A stretch of DNA of 64,000 bases, from assembly GCA_003221695.1 (NCBI GenBank), contig QHSX01000039.1, positions 1 to 64,000 on the forward strand. The letters run 5' to 3'. Below the pieces are notes generated by a model, which was given only the letters and a program-made list of their open reading frames with translations, made no database searches and was not told where the DNA came from. Below are positions 12,467 through 47,262 of this stretch, piece after piece (position 1 is the stretch's first letter; each line of letters starts with the position of its first letter). Source of the stretch: Candidatus Rokuibacteriota bacterium (GTDB lineage: Bacteria > Methylomirabilota > Methylomirabilia > Rokubacteriales > CSP1-6). Position numbers and translations under genes: made by a program.

Positions 12467-12537
12467 ATGAACGGAGCCGCGCCGCACCTTTGTCAGGCCA
12501 CCCACGGAGTGGAGCCGGTCTCGCGGCCCCCGCTACG

Positions 12538-13377
12538 ATGATGCTCAGCGGCAAGGTGGCGCTCGTGACGGGGGCTGGACGCGGCATCGGCCAGGCGATC
12601 GCGCTCGCCTTCGCGCGCGAGGGGGCGAAGGTCGCCGTCGCCGACATCGACCCGGGGACCGCCCAGGCCACCGCGCGGCGCATCGGGCGTGCGAAGGCGC
12701 GGGCCCTCCAGATGGACGTGGCGGACTCCGGCTCGGTCCGCGACGGTTTCGACGCGATCGACCGGAGCTGGGGCCGTATCGACGTCGCGGTGACAAACGC
12801 AGCCGTCGAACCGATCGTCCCCTTCCTCGAGCTCAGCGAGGCGACGTGGGACCGCATCATCGACGTCAACCTCAAGGGCACGTTTCTCGTCGCCCAAGCC
12901 GCGGCGCGGCGCATGGCGCGGCGCCGCAGGGGGGTCATCATCACGCTGTCGTCGGTGAACGCGGAGGTGGCGCGTCCCGAATCGGCCGCCTACGCCGCGA
13001 CCAAGGGCGGCGTGCGCCAGCTCACCAAGGCCATGGCGATCGCGCTCGCGCCCCACGGCATCCGCGTCAACGCGATCGGCCCGGGCACCGTCGTGACCGG
13101 CCTCACCCGCCACCTTCTGAAGAACCGCCGGTGGCGGGACGCGGTCTACGCCCGGACCCCGATGCAGCGGGTCGCCGAGCCCCAGGAGATCGCGGAGGTC
13201 GCCGTCTTCCTCGCCTCGGATGCCTCTTCCTACATGACCGGGTCGACCGTCTACGTTGACGGCGGCCGACTCGCGCTCAATGGCCTCATGCCCCCGAAGG
13301 GAGCCACCCCGCGCCTTCCGCGGGCCATCCGCGGTGACACCGGTCTCGCGGGCCCCGCGCAGAAGGGCTCACGCTGA
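12538..13377 (+). CDS. short-chain dehydrogenase/reductase with C-terminal extension
   Basis: A 279-residue classical SDR with TGAGRGIG (about residues 11-18), Asp after strand 2 (VAVADIDPG, NAD-type), the active-site Ser in TLSSVN and YAATKGG (Tyr, Lys). The core ends at VYVDGG; about 30 further residues, Pro/Arg/Gly-rich, are not typical. Starts at one of two tandem ATG codons (12538, 12541). Its TGA overlaps the next ATG by one base (TGATG), so the small membrane protein downstream is coupled to it. Substrate unknown. Confidence 0.85.
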   Translation: MMLSGKVALVTGAGRGIGQAIALAFAREGAKVAVADIDPGTAQATARRIGRAKARALQMDVADSGSVRDGFDAIDRSWGRIDVAVTNAAVEPIVPFLELSEATWDRIIDVNLKGTFLVAQAAARRMARRRRGVIITLSSVNAEVARPESAAYAATKGGVRQLTKAMAIALAPHGIRVNAIGPGTVVTGLTRHLLKNRRWRDAVYARTPMQRVAEPQEIAEVAVFLASDASSYMTGSTVYVDGGRLALNGLMPPKGATPRLPRAIRGDTGLAGPAQKGSR

Positions 13378-13739
13378 TGGCCGTGCGCGCCGCGAACATC
13401 GGGCCGAAGGGCCGCCGGCGGCGCGTCTTGATGGGCGCCGCGACGCTTGTGGCGGGCAGCGTCGTCCTCGTCGTGCTCCTCATGAGCGGAGTGGGCCGGG
13501 GCTGGCGCGTCGCGCTCTGGGTACCCTTCTGGGCGGGCGCCCTCGGCATTCTCCAGGCGCGCGCGCACACGTGAGTGCGACTCGCGGCGCGCGGGCGGCG
13601 CGACCTCGACGGCGGTGAGGACGTCGTGTCGGACCCGTGGGTGGTCGCGCAGCTCAAGCGCCAGGCCCGCCAGATCCACGTGGAGTCCATCCTGCTCGGG
13701 GCGGCCCTCACGGGCCTGGCGCTGCTGATTCCCGGCTAG
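13377..13739 (+). CDS. small membrane protein with in-frame UGA (candidate selenocysteine or broken gene)
   Basis: The frame from ATG 13377 gives 65 residues with two transmembrane segments (about residues 18-38 and 42-58), then meets UGA at 13572-13574. The same frame continues without another stop for 54 codons, nearly all ending in G or C, through a charged stretch (DLDGGED) and a final hydrophobic segment (SILLGAALTGLALLIPG) to TAG 13737-13739. From memory, related small proteins have Cys where the UGA stands (KTCVALAARG-like versus HT-UGA-VRLAARG here). Explanations are selenocysteine, readthrough, a recent nonsense mutation or an assembly error. No sel gene is in this window. Confidence 0.6.
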
Positions 13740-13763
13740 GCCGTCGAAGGGCCCTCGACGGCC
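13739..13763. terminator. bidirectional terminator hairpin
   Basis: Perfect 9-bp stem (13739-13747 with 13755-13763) and a 7-base loop, between convergent genes. It begins on the last base of the TAG that ends the UGA-extended frame, supporting 13739 as that gene's true end. A second perfect 18-base palindrome at 13761-13778 overlaps the stop of the receiver gene. No T-tract, as is common in GC-rich genomes. Confidence 0.6.
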
Positions 13764-14264: not shown

Positions 14265-15326
14265 CTAGTCCGAGGACTTCCGGATGTCGAGCATTGGGGA
14301 GAGGTGCGGCGAGGGGCGTGGGGCCATTTCGACGCGCTCGATCCGCGTCATGCGCTCGACGATCTCCTGGATGCGGCGCCCCGCCTCGAGCGCCCGCTCC
14401 ACCTTCGTGGCGGCCTCGCCCTCGAGTTTGAGCAACGCCAGGTTCGCGAGGACGGTCGTCAGGGGGTTGTTAATCTCGTGGGCGGCCGCGGCGGCGAGGT
14501 CGGCGGTCGCGCGGAGCCGCATCGCCTTGCGCTCGGCCTCCTCGGCGCGCGTCCGGTCCGTGATGTCGATCGCCAGGCACTCGACGAGGCCGTCCGTCTC
14601 GCGGAGGTTGGCCAGCACGGTGAGCGGCGTGCCGTCGCGGCGGCGCCACTGGAGCTCCTGGTTCGAGACCACCACGCCGGGCGCGAGCGCGACGACGAGC
14701 TCCGACCAGCCTGCGGGATCCACGAAGAGGTCTCTCACGCTGAGCGCGCGGATCTCGCCGGCGGAGCCCGCGCCCACGAGGCGGACGAAGGCCTCGCTGA
14801 ACTCGACGATGCGCCCGTCGCGCGCGGCGCGGAAGACGCCCGCGAGGTTCCGCTCGAAGTGGTGGCGATACCGCTCCATCGAGGTCCTCAGCTCGTCGGT
14901 GAGCCTCGTGAGCTTGGCGGCGGCGTCTTCCGCCTTCCGACGCTCGTCCGCTTCGTGGCGCAGCTCGGCCACCACGGCCTCGGCGCGGCTCTGCTCCCGG
15001 AGCAGCCGCGCGTTGAGAACGCTGACGAGGAGCCCGACGATCAGGAAGAGGATGTATCCCATCAGGTCGCCGGGCTCCTGGATGCCGAATCCGGGGGCCG
15101 GCGGCAGCCAGAAGTAGTCGATCGCGAGCGCCGACAGGAGCGTGGTGAGCAGGCCGGCGCCGAAGCCGCCGAACCAGGCACTCAGCATGACCGCAGGGTA
15201 GAACGGCAGCAGGAGATGGCGCGGGTTCCAGTGGGGCGCCAGGAGCAGGCTGGCGAGGAGAGCGAGCGCCGTCAGGACGACGGCGAGACTGTAGCGCCCC
15301 AGGAGCGACGAAGGCCCCGACCTCAT
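14265..15326 (-). CDS. membrane sensor with PAS and HisKA but no ATPase domain
   Basis: A 353-residue protein. Residues 1-110 are a DUF4118/KdpD-like membrane region with about four hydrophobic segments. A coiled coil and a PAS domain follow (about 145-255, ending LAIDITDRTRAEEAERKA), then a HisKA helix pair with the H-box AAAAAHEINNPLTTVL. It stops soon after, with no N, G1 or G2 boxes, ending in SPMLDIRKSSD. So it can dimerise and carry the His but cannot bind ATP itself. ATG 15326 has GGAGGGG 8 bases upstream; GTG 15404 is less likely. The same architecture and tail recur at 19960-21129. Confidence 0.85.
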   Translation of the reverse strand: MRSGPSSLLGRYSLAVVLTALALLASLLLAPHWNPRHLLLPFYPAVMLSAWFGGFGAGLLTTLLSALAIDYFWLPPAPGFGIQEPGDLMGYILFLIVGLLVSVLNARLLREQSRAEAVVAELRHEADERRKAEDAAAKLTRLTDELRTSMERYRHHFERNLAGVFRAARDGRIVEFSEAFVRLVGAGSAGEIRALSVRDLFVDPAGWSELVVALAPGVVVSNQELQWRRRDGTPLTVLANLRETDGLVECLAIDITDRTRAEEAERKAMRLRATADLAAAAAHEINNPLTTVLANLALLKLEGEAATKVERALEAGRRIQEIVERMTRIERVEMAPRPSPHLSPMLDIRKSSD

Positions 15327-15441
15327 GACGACCGCCCCTCCGTTCACGAGGATTCTAGCCCAGGCGACCGGCGGAGGAGCAGGAAGATGGGCCTCCGTCG
15401 ACACGAGGCGGGCCCGGCCGTCAACGACCTGTTTTCGTCGA

Positions 15442-15534
15442 CTACCAGTCGAAGTACGCGGTCAGGGCGCCCAGCGTGAGCGCCGCGAACGCGACGACCA
15501 CTCCGAGGTAGCCGATGAACTCAGTCCAGCCCAT
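15442..15534 (-). CDS. 30-residue single-span membrane peptide
   Basis: ATG 15534 lies one base beyond the MlaC-like stop (TGACATG) and reads 30 codons to TAG 15442. The product starts MGWTEFIGYLG, has one hydrophobic span (VVVAFAALTLGALTAY) and ends FDW. Codons end in G or C. The first 11 codons resemble the start of the neighbouring mlaC-like gene (M-x-x-T-E-x-x-x-Y-L-G in both), which suggests a local duplication. Function unknown; coupling to mlaC hints at a membrane-complex role (inference). Confidence 0.5.
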   Translation of the reverse strand: MGWTEFIGYLGVVVAFAALTLGALTAYFDW

Positions 15535-15535
15535 G

Positions 15536-16165
15536 TCAGTTTCCGCGCGGGTTCTTCAGCCGGGCGACGAGCCCGTCGTATGACGACTGCTTGATGACCT
15601 TCGAGAACTGAGCGCGGTAACTGGCGACGAGGCTGATCCCGCCGACCGAGACGTCGTACACCGCCCAACGCTCGCTCTCCTGAATCATTCGATACTCGAG
15701 CGGGATCTCTTTTCCGCTGCCGCTTCCCATCACGGTGGCGACGGTCGCGCGGTTGCCCTCGACGGACTCGCCAAGGTAGCGGATCGCGAGAACGCCCGGC
15801 ACGCCAGCGCCTGACGACATCTGTGACATGTACGCGCGCTCGAGGAGGGCCGCGAAGAGCTGCACGAACTCGTCCTGCTCTGTCGGCGTCCGCGCCTCCC
15901 ACTCCCGCCCCATCGCGAGTCGCGCCGCCTCTCGGAAGTCGAAGGTCACGCCCATGACGTTATGGATCGCGCCCATGAGCTCGCGGGGCTTTTCCTGGAA
16001 CTCAGGGTCGCCGAGCACACGATTCACGGCCGCGAACACGCCCTGAAGCGTCTCCGTCGGCGACGCCGCCCACGCGTTACCGCAGAGGACGAGCAGCAGG
16101 GCGAGCGAGGCTGCGAGAGCCATCGCGCGGTTCCCGAGGTATTCAGCGACTTCAGTCCGGCTCAT
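15536..16165 (-). CDS. mlaC: MlaC/Ttg2D-family periplasmic phospholipid-binding protein
   Basis: A 209-residue exported protein of the Tol_Tol_Ttg2 family, which carries phospholipids between outer and inner membranes with an MlaFEDB ABC system. The signal peptide lies at about residues 15-34 (hydrophobic core, then NAWAAS). The family pattern is clear (TFDFREAARLAMGREW, FAALLERAYMSQM, YRMIQESERWAVYDVSVGGISLVASYRAQFSKVI). ATG 16165 has GGAGG 5 bases before it. The first 14 residues precede the signal peptide and look like the start of the adjacent 30-residue ORF. No mlaE, F or D genes are nearby. Confidence 0.87.
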   Translation of the reverse strand: MSRTEVAEYLGNRAMALAASLALLLVLCGNAWAASPTETLQGVFAAVNRVLGDPEFQEKPRELMGAIHNVMGVTFDFREAARLAMGREWEARTPTEQDEFVQLFAALLERAYMSQMSSGAGVPGVLAIRYLGESVEGNRATVATVMGSGSGKEIPLEYRMIQESERWAVYDVSVGGISLVASYRAQFSKVIKQSSYDGLVARLKNPRGN

Positions 16166-16389
16166 GTCAGCCTCCGTTCCAGTCCTTTGGCGTTTGTCGT
16201 CATGGTTGCGTTCAGCTGCCCTTGAGGAGTGCAGGATCGGTGCCAGCCGCAGGCGGGTTCAGAGACCCCGGAAATACGCGGGCTTCTCGTTCCGCCCTCG
16301 GGGGAGCGGAGCAACGGGCGTCAGAGATGACAGACGGCTATGCCAGAACGGACAGGACGTGGTTCACGCGTGGTGAGCGCTTCCGTGGG

Positions 16390-17958
16390 CTAGCTCGCGA
16401 GGAGATGGTGAGCGACCCGCAGGACCTCGTCCAGATCGAATGGCTTCGGTAAACAGGGAGCCCCAGTCGACTCGAGAAACCTCCGCTTCTCCGGGTCGAG
16501 CACGTCCCCCGTGACGAAGATCAGCCGGCGGCAGTACCGTGGGAAACGCCGCTCGAGCGCACGGTAGAGCTCGACACCGTCGAGCACGGGCATCTTCGTA
16601 TCGGTCACAATCAGGTCGTAGCCGCGACGCCCGAGCATCTCCAGGGCCATCGCCCCGTCGGCCGCAACGTCCACGTGGTGGCCGGCGCGCTGAAGCATCT
16701 CGGCCAGCACCGCCGCGATCTCCGATTCGTCGTCCACGACGAGGATGGCTTTCGCGGCCGGCGTGGGCAGGGCCTCGGCTGGTGCGGCCTTCGTCGCCGC
16801 AGCCGGTGGAGCGAGCACGGGCAGCTCGATCAAGAACGTCGCGCCGCGTCCCAGCTCGCTCTCGACGGTGATCGCCCCGTCGTGCTCCTGGACGATCCCC
16901 TTACAGAGGGAGAGCCCGAGTCCCGTCCCCTGGCCGCTCGGCTTCGTGGTGAAGAAGGGTTCGAAGATCCGCGGCTGGATCTCCCGCGGAATCCCCGGCC
17001 CCGTGTCGCTGACCTCGAGCCGAACGTGCCCGCGCTCACGGTCGAATCGCGTCGCGAGCGTGAGCCGGCGCGGCGACGGCACCTCTCGCATCGCGTGTTG
17101 GGCGTTGACGATCAGATTCACCAGGACCTGGTGGAGCCGGTGGGCGTCCGCCCAGAGCACCGGCAGGTCCTCGTCGAGGTCGAAGACGACCTCGATGCCA
17201 CCGGTGCGTAATTCATAGGCCAGTAGCTCGACCGCTTCGCGGATCACGCTGTTCACTCGTACCTCGCCGCGCTGGGGCGTGTGCTGCCGTGCGAGCGCCA
17301 GGAAGTTGCGCACGATACGAACGCAGCGGTCGGCGGCCGCGTGGATCTTTTGCGCCCGCTGGACGAGCGAGGTTCCCGCCCCTCCCGCCCGCAAGAGATG
17401 GGTCTGGCCGATGACGACCGTCAGGGGGTTGTTCAGCTCGTGGGCGACACCCGCCAGGAGCCCACCCATCGTCGCCAGCTTCTCGGTTTGAAGGAGCCGC
17501 TCGGTGCGCTCGCGCACGGTCTGCTCGAGGCTCTCGTTGTGACGCGCAAGCTCCTGATGGAGCAATCGGGTCTCGAGAAGGTTCTTGATCCGAAGGAGGA
17601 CCTCGACCCGATCGAACGGCTTCGTCAGGAAGTCCTTCGCGCCGCTCTCGAGTGCCCGACGCTTCGTCTCCATCGTGATGTCGGCGGTCAGGACCAGGAT
17701 CGGGAGGAAGGTCTGCGACGAAATCAAGGGCTTGATCCGCTCGAGGACCTGGAACCCGTCCAGGTAGGGCATCGCGAGGTCGAGCAGGACGAGGTCGGGC
17801 CGAAACTCGGTGTAGAGCGGCAGCGCCTGGCGCGCGTCAGTCGTGGACTTCAGATTGGTGTAGCCCTCGCGCTCGAGCACCCGCTCGAGGAGCCTCACGT
17901 TGGCGGATTCGTCGTCGACGATCAGGATCCGCGCGGCCTTGCGGGTCTCGTCATCCAT
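16390..17958 (-). CDS. hybrid sensor kinase: receiver-HisKA-HATPase-receiver
   Basis: A 522-residue soluble protein. Residues about 10-130 are a receiver (VDDESAN, LVLLDLAMPYLDG, TKPFD). A coiled linker leads to HisKA with H-box AGVAHELNNPLTVVIGQ, then a complete HATPase with N-box NLIVNAQHA, G1 DTGPGIP and G2 GQGTGLGLSL. A second receiver follows (VDDESEI, DLIVTDTKMPVLDG, LPKPFD). No membrane span or sensor domain. ATG 17958 begins 16 bases after the GAF-protein stop. It is the only complete kinase of this island and could serve the ATPase-less sensors next door (inference). Confidence 0.9.
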   Translation of the reverse strand: MDDETRKAARILIVDDESANVRLLERVLEREGYTNLKSTTDARQALPLYTEFRPDLVLLDLAMPYLDGFQVLERIKPLISSQTFLPILVLTADITMETKRRALESGAKDFLTKPFDRVEVLLRIKNLLETRLLHQELARHNESLEQTVRERTERLLQTEKLATMGGLLAGVAHELNNPLTVVIGQTHLLRAGGAGTSLVQRAQKIHAAADRCVRIVRNFLALARQHTPQRGEVRVNSVIREAVELLAYELRTGGIEVVFDLDEDLPVLWADAHRLHQVLVNLIVNAQHAMREVPSPRRLTLATRFDRERGHVRLEVSDTGPGIPREIQPRIFEPFFTTKPSGQGTGLGLSLCKGIVQEHDGAITVESELGRGATFLIELPVLAPPAAATKAAPAEALPTPAAKAILVVDDESEIAAVLAEMLQRAGHHVDVAADGAMALEMLGRRGYDLIVTDTKMPVLDGVELYRALERRFPRYCRRLIFVTGDVLDPEKRRFLESTGAPCLPKPFDLDEVLRVAHHLLAS

Positions 17959-42595: not shown

Positions 42596-43623
42596 GCCGT
42601 GAGCTCCACGCCGCGCTCGCCCGCCACGATCTCGCCGAGGCGCAGGACGGTCTCCCCGGCGTCGCGCAGGACGCCGGTCGCGTGCTCGACGTCCCTGGGC
42701 GGCAGGACGATCACGTAGCCGATCCCCATGTTGAAGACCCGGAACATCTCGGCGTCGGCCACGCGGCCCGCGCGCTGGAGCGTCGCGAAGACCGGCGGCG
42801 GCGTCCACGCCGTGCGCGAGATCCGCGCGCGGCACCCGTCGGGCAGCACGCGCGGGAGGTTCCCCGGAAGGCCGCCCCCCGTGACGTGCGCCATCGCGTG
42901 CACCTCCGCGCGCGGGAGGAGTGCCTGCACCGGCCTGGCATAGATGCGGGTCGGCGTGAGCAGCTCGTCGCCGACCGTCCGCCCGGTGTCGGGCAGGACG
43001 GCATCCACCGTGAGCTTCATCACGTCGAAGACGATCCGGCGCGCCAGTGTGTACCCGTTCGAGTGGAGCCCCGACGAGGCGAGCCCGAGGACGACGTCGC
43101 CGGGGCGGACCCGAGCGCCGTCCACGATCCGCGAGCGCTCGACGACGCCGACGGCGAAGCCCGCGAGGTCGTACTCGCCGGGACCGTAAAGGTCGGGGAG
43201 CTCCGCGGTCTCGCCGCCGACGAGGGCGCAGCCGGCGAGGCGGCAGCCGGCCGCGATGCCCCTCACGATCGTCTCCACGCGCGCCGGGTCGAGGCGCGCG
43301 GTGCCGATGTAGTCGAGGAAATAGAGGGGCTCGGCGCCATGGACCAGGAGGTCGTTGACGCCCATCGCGACGAGATCGATGCCGACCGTGTCGTGGCGGT
43401 CGGCGAGGAACGCGACCTTGAGCTTCGTGCCGACCCCGTCGGTGGAGGAGACCATGACCGGTTCGCGGTAGCGCGCGGGCACGCTCACGAAGGCGGCGAA
43501 CCCGCCGACGCCCGCCAGGACCTCGGGACGCGCGGTCGAGCGCGCGAGGGGCGCGATGCGGCGGACCGCGTCGTCGCCGGCGTCGATGTCGACGCCAGCC
43601 TCGCGGTAAGTCAGGGGCTTCAT
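42592..43623 (-). CDS. purM: phosphoribosylformylglycinamidine cyclo-ligase PurM
   Basis: A 343-residue AIR synthetase. Signatures are STDGVGTKLKVAF, MGVNDLLVHGAEPLYFLDY, ALVGGETAELPDLY and the C-terminal MAHVTGGGLPGNLPRVLP with FNMGIGYV. Starts at ATG 43623, 20 bases after purF; stop overlaps purN start. Standard length for the family. Confidence 0.96.
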   Translation of the reverse strand: MKPLTYREAGVDIDAGDDAVRRIAPLARSTARPEVLAGVGGFAAFVSVPARYREPVMVSSTDGVGTKLKVAFLADRHDTVGIDLVAMGVNDLLVHGAEPLYFLDYIGTARLDPARVETIVRGIAAGCRLAGCALVGGETAELPDLYGPGEYDLAGFAVGVVERSRIVDGARVRPGDVVLGLASSGLHSNGYTLARRIVFDVMKLTVDAVLPDTGRTVGDELLTPTRIYARPVQALLPRAEVHAMAHVTGGGLPGNLPRVLPDGCRARISRTAWTPPPVFATLQRAGRVADAEMFRVFNMGIGYVIVLPPRDVEHATGVLRDAGETVLRLGEIVAGERGVELTA

Positions 43624-45059: not shown

Positions 45060-47262
45060 ATCCGCTCCTCCACGCGCGCTCGATCCGGTCCAGCGCGACA
45101 TCCACGATCGTCTTCGTCCCGAGCCGGAGCACCAGCCGGTCGCCGCCGGTCGTGCCGATCCAGCGCCACGGGATCGCCGACTCCGCCATCAGCGCCTCGA
45201 ACTCGCGCACCCGCGCGGGCTCCACGGAGACCATCACGCGCGACGGCCCCTCGCCGAACAGCACCTGGTCGCCACGGCCGGACGCGTCGAGCGCCGCCTC
45301 CAGGCCCACGAGCTCCCGGCCGGTCACGCACCCCTCGGCCAGCGCCACGGCGAGCCCGCCCTCGGAGCAGTCGTGCGCCGCCGTCACCAGCCCAGCGCTC
45401 ACGGCGGCACGCACCGCCGCCTGGACCTTGCGCTCCAGCTCGAGCTCGAGCGGCGCCAGCCTGCCGCCGAGCCGCCGGTGGGCGCGCCAGAGGTACTCGC
45501 TGCCGCCCAGGCTCGTGTGGTCGGGCCCGAGCAGCGCGACGCGGTGTCCCGCGCCCTTGAACCACTGGGTCGCCCGCCGCCCCGCATCCTCGAGGATGCC
45601 GACCACCCCGATGACCGGCGTCGGCAGGATCGCCTGGCCGTTGGTCTCATTGTAGAAGGAAACGTTGCCGCCCACTACCGGGATCTCGAGGGCGCGGCAC
45701 GCTTCGGCGATACCGTCGATCGCCTGGGCGAACTGCCAAAGGATCTCCGGCCGCTCGGGCGAGCCGAAATTCATGCAATCGGTCACCCCGACGGGCGTGG
45801 CCCCCGAGCAGGAGACGTTGCGCGCCGCCTCGCAGACGGCCATGGCGGCCCCACGCCGCGGGTCCAGGAAGACGTGGCGCCCGTTGCCGTCCGTGGACAC
45901 GGCGAGCGCCCGCGGTGCGCCCTTCACGCGGAGGACCGCCGCGTCGGAGCCGGGGAGGACGAGCGTGTTGATCCCCACCTGCTGGTCGTACTGGCGGAAG
46001 ACCCATTCCTTGGAGGCGATGTTCGGCGACCCGCAGAGGGCGAGCAACGCCTCGCCGTAGTCAGGAGGCTCGGGCAGCGTCAGCGGGTCGAGGGCGAGGG
46101 GCTCGGTGAGCCACCCGGGCGGCGCCGTCGGCTTCGTGTACTTCGGCGCCTCGGCGAGCAGGCTCAGCGGCACGTGGGCGACGACCTCGCCGCTGAGCCG
46201 TGCCGTCAGCGTGCCACCGGCGGTGACCCGTCCGATCTCCACCGCGTCGAGCTCCCACTTGGCGAAGATCCGCCGGACCTCGTCCTCGCGTCCCCGGGCG
46301 GCCACGAGGAGCATGCGCTCCTGCGACTCCGAGAGAAGGATCTCGTACGGGGTCATCCCCACCTCGCGCTGGGGCACCCGCGAGAGCTCGACGTCCATCC
46401 CCGTGCCTGCGCGCGCCGGCATCTCGGACGTACAGCACGCGAGACCCGCCGCCCCCATGTCCTGGATCCCGACGACCGCGCCCGTTTTCATGGCCTCCAG
46501 GCACGCCTCGAGCAGGAGCTTCTCGGTGAACGGGTCGCCCACCTGCACCGTCGGGCGCCGCTCTGCGGCCGAGTCGTCGAAGGTCGCCGACGCCATCGTC
46601 GCGCCGTGGATCCCGTCGCGCCCGGTCTTGTTGCCGACGTAGAAGACCGGGTTGCCGACGCCCTCGGCGCGCGCCAGGACGATCTGGTCCGCGCGCACGA
46701 GCCCGACGCACATGACGTTGACCAGCGGGTTCCCGGCGTACTCGGGCGCGAAGGCGACCTCCCCACCGACCGTGGGGCAGCCGAAGCAGTTGCCGTACCA
46801 GCTGATGCCCGACACGACGCCCTCGACGAGGCGGCGCGTCTTCGGGTCGTCGAGGTCGCCGAACCTGAGCGAGTCGAGGAGGGCGATGGGCCGGGCGCCC
46901 ATCGTGAAGACGTCTCGGAGAATGCCGCCGACGCCGGTGGCCGCGCCCTGGAACGGCTCGATGAACGATGGGTGGTTGTGGCTCTCGATCTTGAAGACGA
47001 CGGCCCAGCCGTCGCCGATGTCGATCGCCCCCGCGTTTTCTCCAGGCCCTTGCAGCACACGGGCGCCTTCGGTGGGAAGCCGGCTCAGATAGACCCGCGA
47101 GTGCTTGTAGGCGCAGTGCTCCGACCAGAGCGCCGCGAAGAGCCCGAGCTCGGCGTAGGTCGGCTCGCGGCCGAGGCGGCTCGTGATCCGTTCGTATTCT
47201 TCGGCGGTGAGGCCCGAGTCCCTCGCGAGGTCGAGCGTGACCTTCGGCGGTGCCCCCGTCAA
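45040..47262 (-). CDS. purL: phosphoribosylformylglycinamidine synthase subunit PurL
   Basis: A 740-residue small-type PurL, the synthetase subunit of the three-part FGAM synthase with PurS and PurQ, both adjacent. [44 protein letters not shown] and [14 protein letters not shown] are signatures. The best available start is TTG 47262, six bases after the purQ stop; the Shine-Dalgarno is weak, so coupling to purQ is likely. Confidence 0.96.

Follow-up and report, generated by a model that had tools for sequence, protein, structure and literature searches.

The window, a stretch of 64,000 nucleotides from a soil bacterium of Candidatus Rokuibacteriota, carries on its forward strand a small putative selenoprotein gene (13377..13739). 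Its frame opens with an ATG at 13377, meets its sole in-frame TGA at 13572-13574 (codon 66, forward strand), and then stays open for 54 codons up to a TAG at 13737-13739; when the TGA is read through, the open reading frame consists of 120 codons, including that of the proposed selenocysteine (Sec66), plus the TAG. The frame had been described in the same way in the initial annotation and is confirmed in the sequence. A short-chain dehydrogenase gene (Pfam adh_short) precedes it, and the stop of that gene overlaps the start of the putative selenoprotein gene; because of this overlap the two are probably translationally coupled. In the window (12490-13377), the short-chain dehydrogenase gene sits between a dioxygenase-like gene and the putative selenoprotein gene. 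An intradiol-dioxygenase-like gene is present upstream in nine close relatives, and in some relatives (e.g., L004, L010, and L011) the dioxygenase-like gene lies directly upstream of the putative selenoprotein gene instead. As a functional clue, the gene neighbourhood offers no neighbour common to the whole family.

The gene is followed by a response-regulator gene on the opposite strand, in convergent orientation. Between the two, directly 3′ of the TAG, the sequence folds into a 9-bp hairpin (13740..13762, forward strand). The hairpin had earlier been taken for a terminator; it does exist, but no T-run stands behind it, as a canonical intrinsic terminator would require. An Rfam search of the window gave no matches.

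The structure of the product was predicted by AlphaFold2 with alignment A2, Sec being entered as Cys. The prediction is one confident three-helix chain that runs across the UGA, with a mean pLDDT of 95.6 and a pTM of 0.85. In this model, helix 1 (residues 10-37; 13404..13487, forward strand as for all the elements given here) is mostly transmembrane, and helix 2 (residues 41-63; 13497..13565) ends three residues before Sec66. After Sec come a short helix and a beta hairpin (residues 67-86; 13575..13634), which contain the conserved residues L69, G73, and R75 of the alignment, and then helix 3 (residues 87-117; 13635..13727), which is amphipathic and then transmembrane. The mean count of lysine plus arginine across the family is 3.9 for residues 4-16 and 6.1 for residues 66-98, as compared with 1.5 for the loop between helices 1 and 2 (38-44). 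By the positive-inside rule, this distribution most likely means that the N-terminus lies on the cytosolic side, as do Sec66, at the membrane surface, and the segment after it.

Homolog searches covered more than 700 genomes and yielded 58 intact homologs from four phyla. One UGA is present at aligned position 66 in 55 of them, and Cys takes its place in the other three, encoded by TGC, TGC, and TGT. A protein search of 60 relatives found 24 homologs, each with exactly one internal TGA (24/24), and a profile search of the window's phylum found 28 homologs in 95 genomes, again with a single TGA in every case (28/28). The wider searches added 17 TGA and two Cys homologs in a second phylum, two TGA homologs in a third, and eight TGA homologs, one Cys homolog, and one apparently decayed copy in a fourth. 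When contigs were searched with the single sequence, the Rokuibacteriota contig QHSA01000082.1 was the only named relative returned. Residues N7, R16, T65, residue 66 itself, L69, and R75 are invariant in the 48 rows of alignment A2. The initial annotation had named Cys at this position in similar proteins and had proposed a comparison of residue 66 among homologs; such Cys forms do exist, but they make up only 3 of the 58. Since the Cys forms fall in three separate branches of a midpoint-rooted tree, the comparison suggests that the exchange between Sec and Cys happened repeatedly.

A distant homolog, L096 (G746:C49:1962-2192), has three TGA codons, at Trp, Sec, and Arg positions, and a 3′ end that is not intact; judged by its sequence, it is apparently a decayed copy. 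Several weak matches were set aside: L062 and L083-L085, where the family motif is absent; L027 and L097, which are different, longer proteins, L027 being the single further weak match of the protein search of 60 relatives and unrelated; and L099, on account of its E-value and two stops. No relatives were found among plasmids by tblastn or in the viral contigs searched.

The source genome (Candidatus Rokuibacteriota, 4.6 Mb) encodes the complete set of genes for Sec incorporation, namely, selA, selB, tRNA-Sec (selC), and selD. The initial annotation had seen none of them, which is true of the window; all four lie outside it in the same genome. The tRNA-Sec gene is located at C52:11779-11876, on a contig other than that of the window (C35), and the same contig C52 carries selA (ending at 14573) and selB (14566-16470) in tandem. 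The selA gene was identified from its translated sequence and from its position immediately ahead of selB rather than by family search. The selD gene is found at C35:113035-113976, on the window's own contig and about 49 kb beyond the window, and is itself interrupted by an in-frame TGA, which is what the known Sec-containing form of SelD would lead one to expect. A selB match is present in all 60 relatives searched, in 55 of them over the family cut-off, and selA is present in all 12 tested hosts of other phyla, two Cys-form hosts among them. Weak SelD-profile matches below the cut-off occur in the window at 42841-43356 and 46363-47058 (minus strand); these are presumably other members of that superfamily.

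In the published model of the bacterial SECIS element, an upper stem of 4-16 bp carries an apical loop of 3-9 nt that has a G among its first two nucleotides, and the hairpin lies 16-37 nt from the UGA with a minimum free energy of at most -7.5 kcal/mol (PMC13188914). A candidate of this type, CGCGC / GGGCG loop / GCGCG, is found at 13588..13602 (forward strand), with arms at 13588-13592 and 13598-13602 and a loop that begins 18 nt past the UGA. In all 55 UGA-containing genes, a hairpin is possible whose stem has 5 bp or more and whose loop starts with G, 16-19 nt after the UGA; stem, loop, and spacing agree with the published model (PMC13188914). The family thus favours this hairpin over the one first proposed, which had a 5-bp stem and a 12-base loop. 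For the conserved hairpin, the earlier worry that the distance is short for a SECIS falls away.

The mean stem in the 55 genes is 6.07 bp, as compared with 4.00 bp under synonymous recoding with matched codon usage. With the position held fixed, the means are 6.17 and 3.68 bp in the first 48 genes, and the combined p-values of this fixed-position test are not to be read literally, as they ignore shared ancestry. The clearest signal comes from the lower-GC genes L087-L089, which have stems of 5-6 bp against about 2 bp when recoded (p 0.005-0.028). The codons that flank the loop co-vary with pairing kept, CTC, for example, occurring with GAG, CTG with CAG, and CAC with GTG. Taken alone, the window gives no such signal: folding downstream of the UGA is no better than in shuffled sequences (z 0.46), and the hairpin is not above chance against synonymous recoding (p 0.44). 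The 19-nt core of the window's hairpin has a free energy of -9.6 kcal/mol; in L012, L014, L021, L060, and L086 the corresponding core is weaker than -7.5 kcal/mol. The hairpin is lost in the Cys homolog L082, and its loss does not cleanly track Cys because 5-bp hairpins still fit in the Cys homologs L073 and L090.

Reading of the UGA by an ordinary tRNA, whether that for Trp or through general leaky readthrough without Sec, would likewise keep the downstream frame open. Against it stand the substitute residue, which is always Cys (3/3) and never Trp, the presence of SelA in the tested hosts and of SelB matches in all the relatives, and the retention of a SECIS-like hairpin, so that ordinary readthrough is very unlikely. 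The UGA might also be a true stop, with a second protein reinitiated at a GTG right after it and two separate small proteins as the result. The codon directly after the UGA is indeed GTG in the window, as it is in 36 of the 55 homologs, but 18 of the 55 have GTC, GTA, ACG, ATC, or CTG there instead, the three Cys homologs form one continuous chain, and a single conserved motif spans the UGA, all of which makes reinitiation extremely improbable.

The UGA might, finally, reflect an assembly error, a decayed gene, or a fresh nonsense mutation, the last of these having been among the options of the initial annotation; an error is conceivable in any one MAG sequence, and L096 does look decayed. The identical UGA in 55 genomes argues against all three and excludes the fresh mutation. 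In addition, dN/dS 3′ of the UGA is 0.17-0.27 among four members of the window's genus, and every pair of these shows a smaller pN/pS downstream of the UGA than upstream. These values indicate that the region after the UGA is constrained as protein and under purifying selection, which leaves error or decay scarcely credible.

Comparison of homologs together with genome content therefore argues strongly that the gene very probably encodes a selenoprotein, with UGA 66 decoded as Sec. The UGA persists across phyla with Cys as its sole substitute, the host has the full sel set, and a SECIS-type hairpin is conserved; the Sec option already raised for this frame is supported on these grounds. In the proposed mechanism, host SelA, SelB, SelC, and SelD would decode UGA 66 as Sec, and the short SECIS hairpin, with its loop 18 nt past the UGA, would guide the insertion. 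The product would be a 120-residue, three-helix selenoprotein of the inner membrane.

No Cys at all is present in 44 of the 55 Sec homologs, and an intramolecular selenenylsulfide is therefore not the general mechanism. For the same reason, the selenol would most likely act alone or together with the thiol of a partner. The role put forward, tentatively, is that of a redox centre at the membrane surface that would reduce peroxides or exchange with a partner's thiol. It is quite possible, if short of probable, that these membrane selenoproteins form a family with a fold of its own for which selenium is nearly indispensable, as Sec is usual and Cys rare among the homologs found; if true, this would point to a chemistry at the membrane surface that sulfur does poorly. 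The family provides a specific case in which to ask what makes selenium necessary in a membrane protein.

No curated family of Pfam or NCBIfam 20.0, those of selenoproteins included, scored above cut-off, and NF041374 (GOS_B), checked by name, gave no match. The best hit among PDB sequences had an E-value of 0.28, and the PDB and viral fold libraries gave no match at E <= 0.001. A catalogue of 2026 lists 119 prokaryotic selenoprotein families (PMC13188914), and comparison by motif found no fitting entry among them; searches of the open-access literature on selenoproteins of this phylum turned up no account of the family either. The family, almost certainly Sec-containing, appears new relative to the sources searched, although subscription journals or uncurated database notes may already describe it. 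Its fold and motif match none that are recognised; in the window's phylum 28 of 95 genomes carry it, and it extends to three other phyla. Ordinary annotation would end these genes at the UGA. Deep-Sep states as a limit that it leans on Cys homologs (PMC12013277); finders relying on these could miss the family, since few of its members have Cys and it is covered by no curated model.

The family resembles known bacterial selenoproteins such as FdhA, SelD, and the HesB-like proteins (PMC13188914) in its UGA-encoded Sec, in having Cys homologs at the same position, in a hairpin within the published bSECIS spacing, and in hosts with SelA, SelB, SelC, and SelD. It differs from them as a predicted three-helix membrane protein, and its Cys forms are exceptional. 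Its three long helices, with neither a CxxU nor a UxxC motif, set it apart from the thioredoxin fold. For the YgaP-like transmembrane domain (PF11127), no Pfam score is significant; weak profile matches occur in 3 of 48 family members (best E 0.029), and the protein of the window is not matched at all.

Among eukaryotes, SELENOK and SELENOS are small membrane selenoproteins with one Sec outside any thioredoxin fold, near the C-terminus. The likeness to the present family lies in the small membrane protein, the one Sec, and the lack of a thioredoxin fold, and no homology is claimed. In the new family, in contrast to these two proteins, the predicted Sec is located in the middle of the chain, at the end of helix 2.
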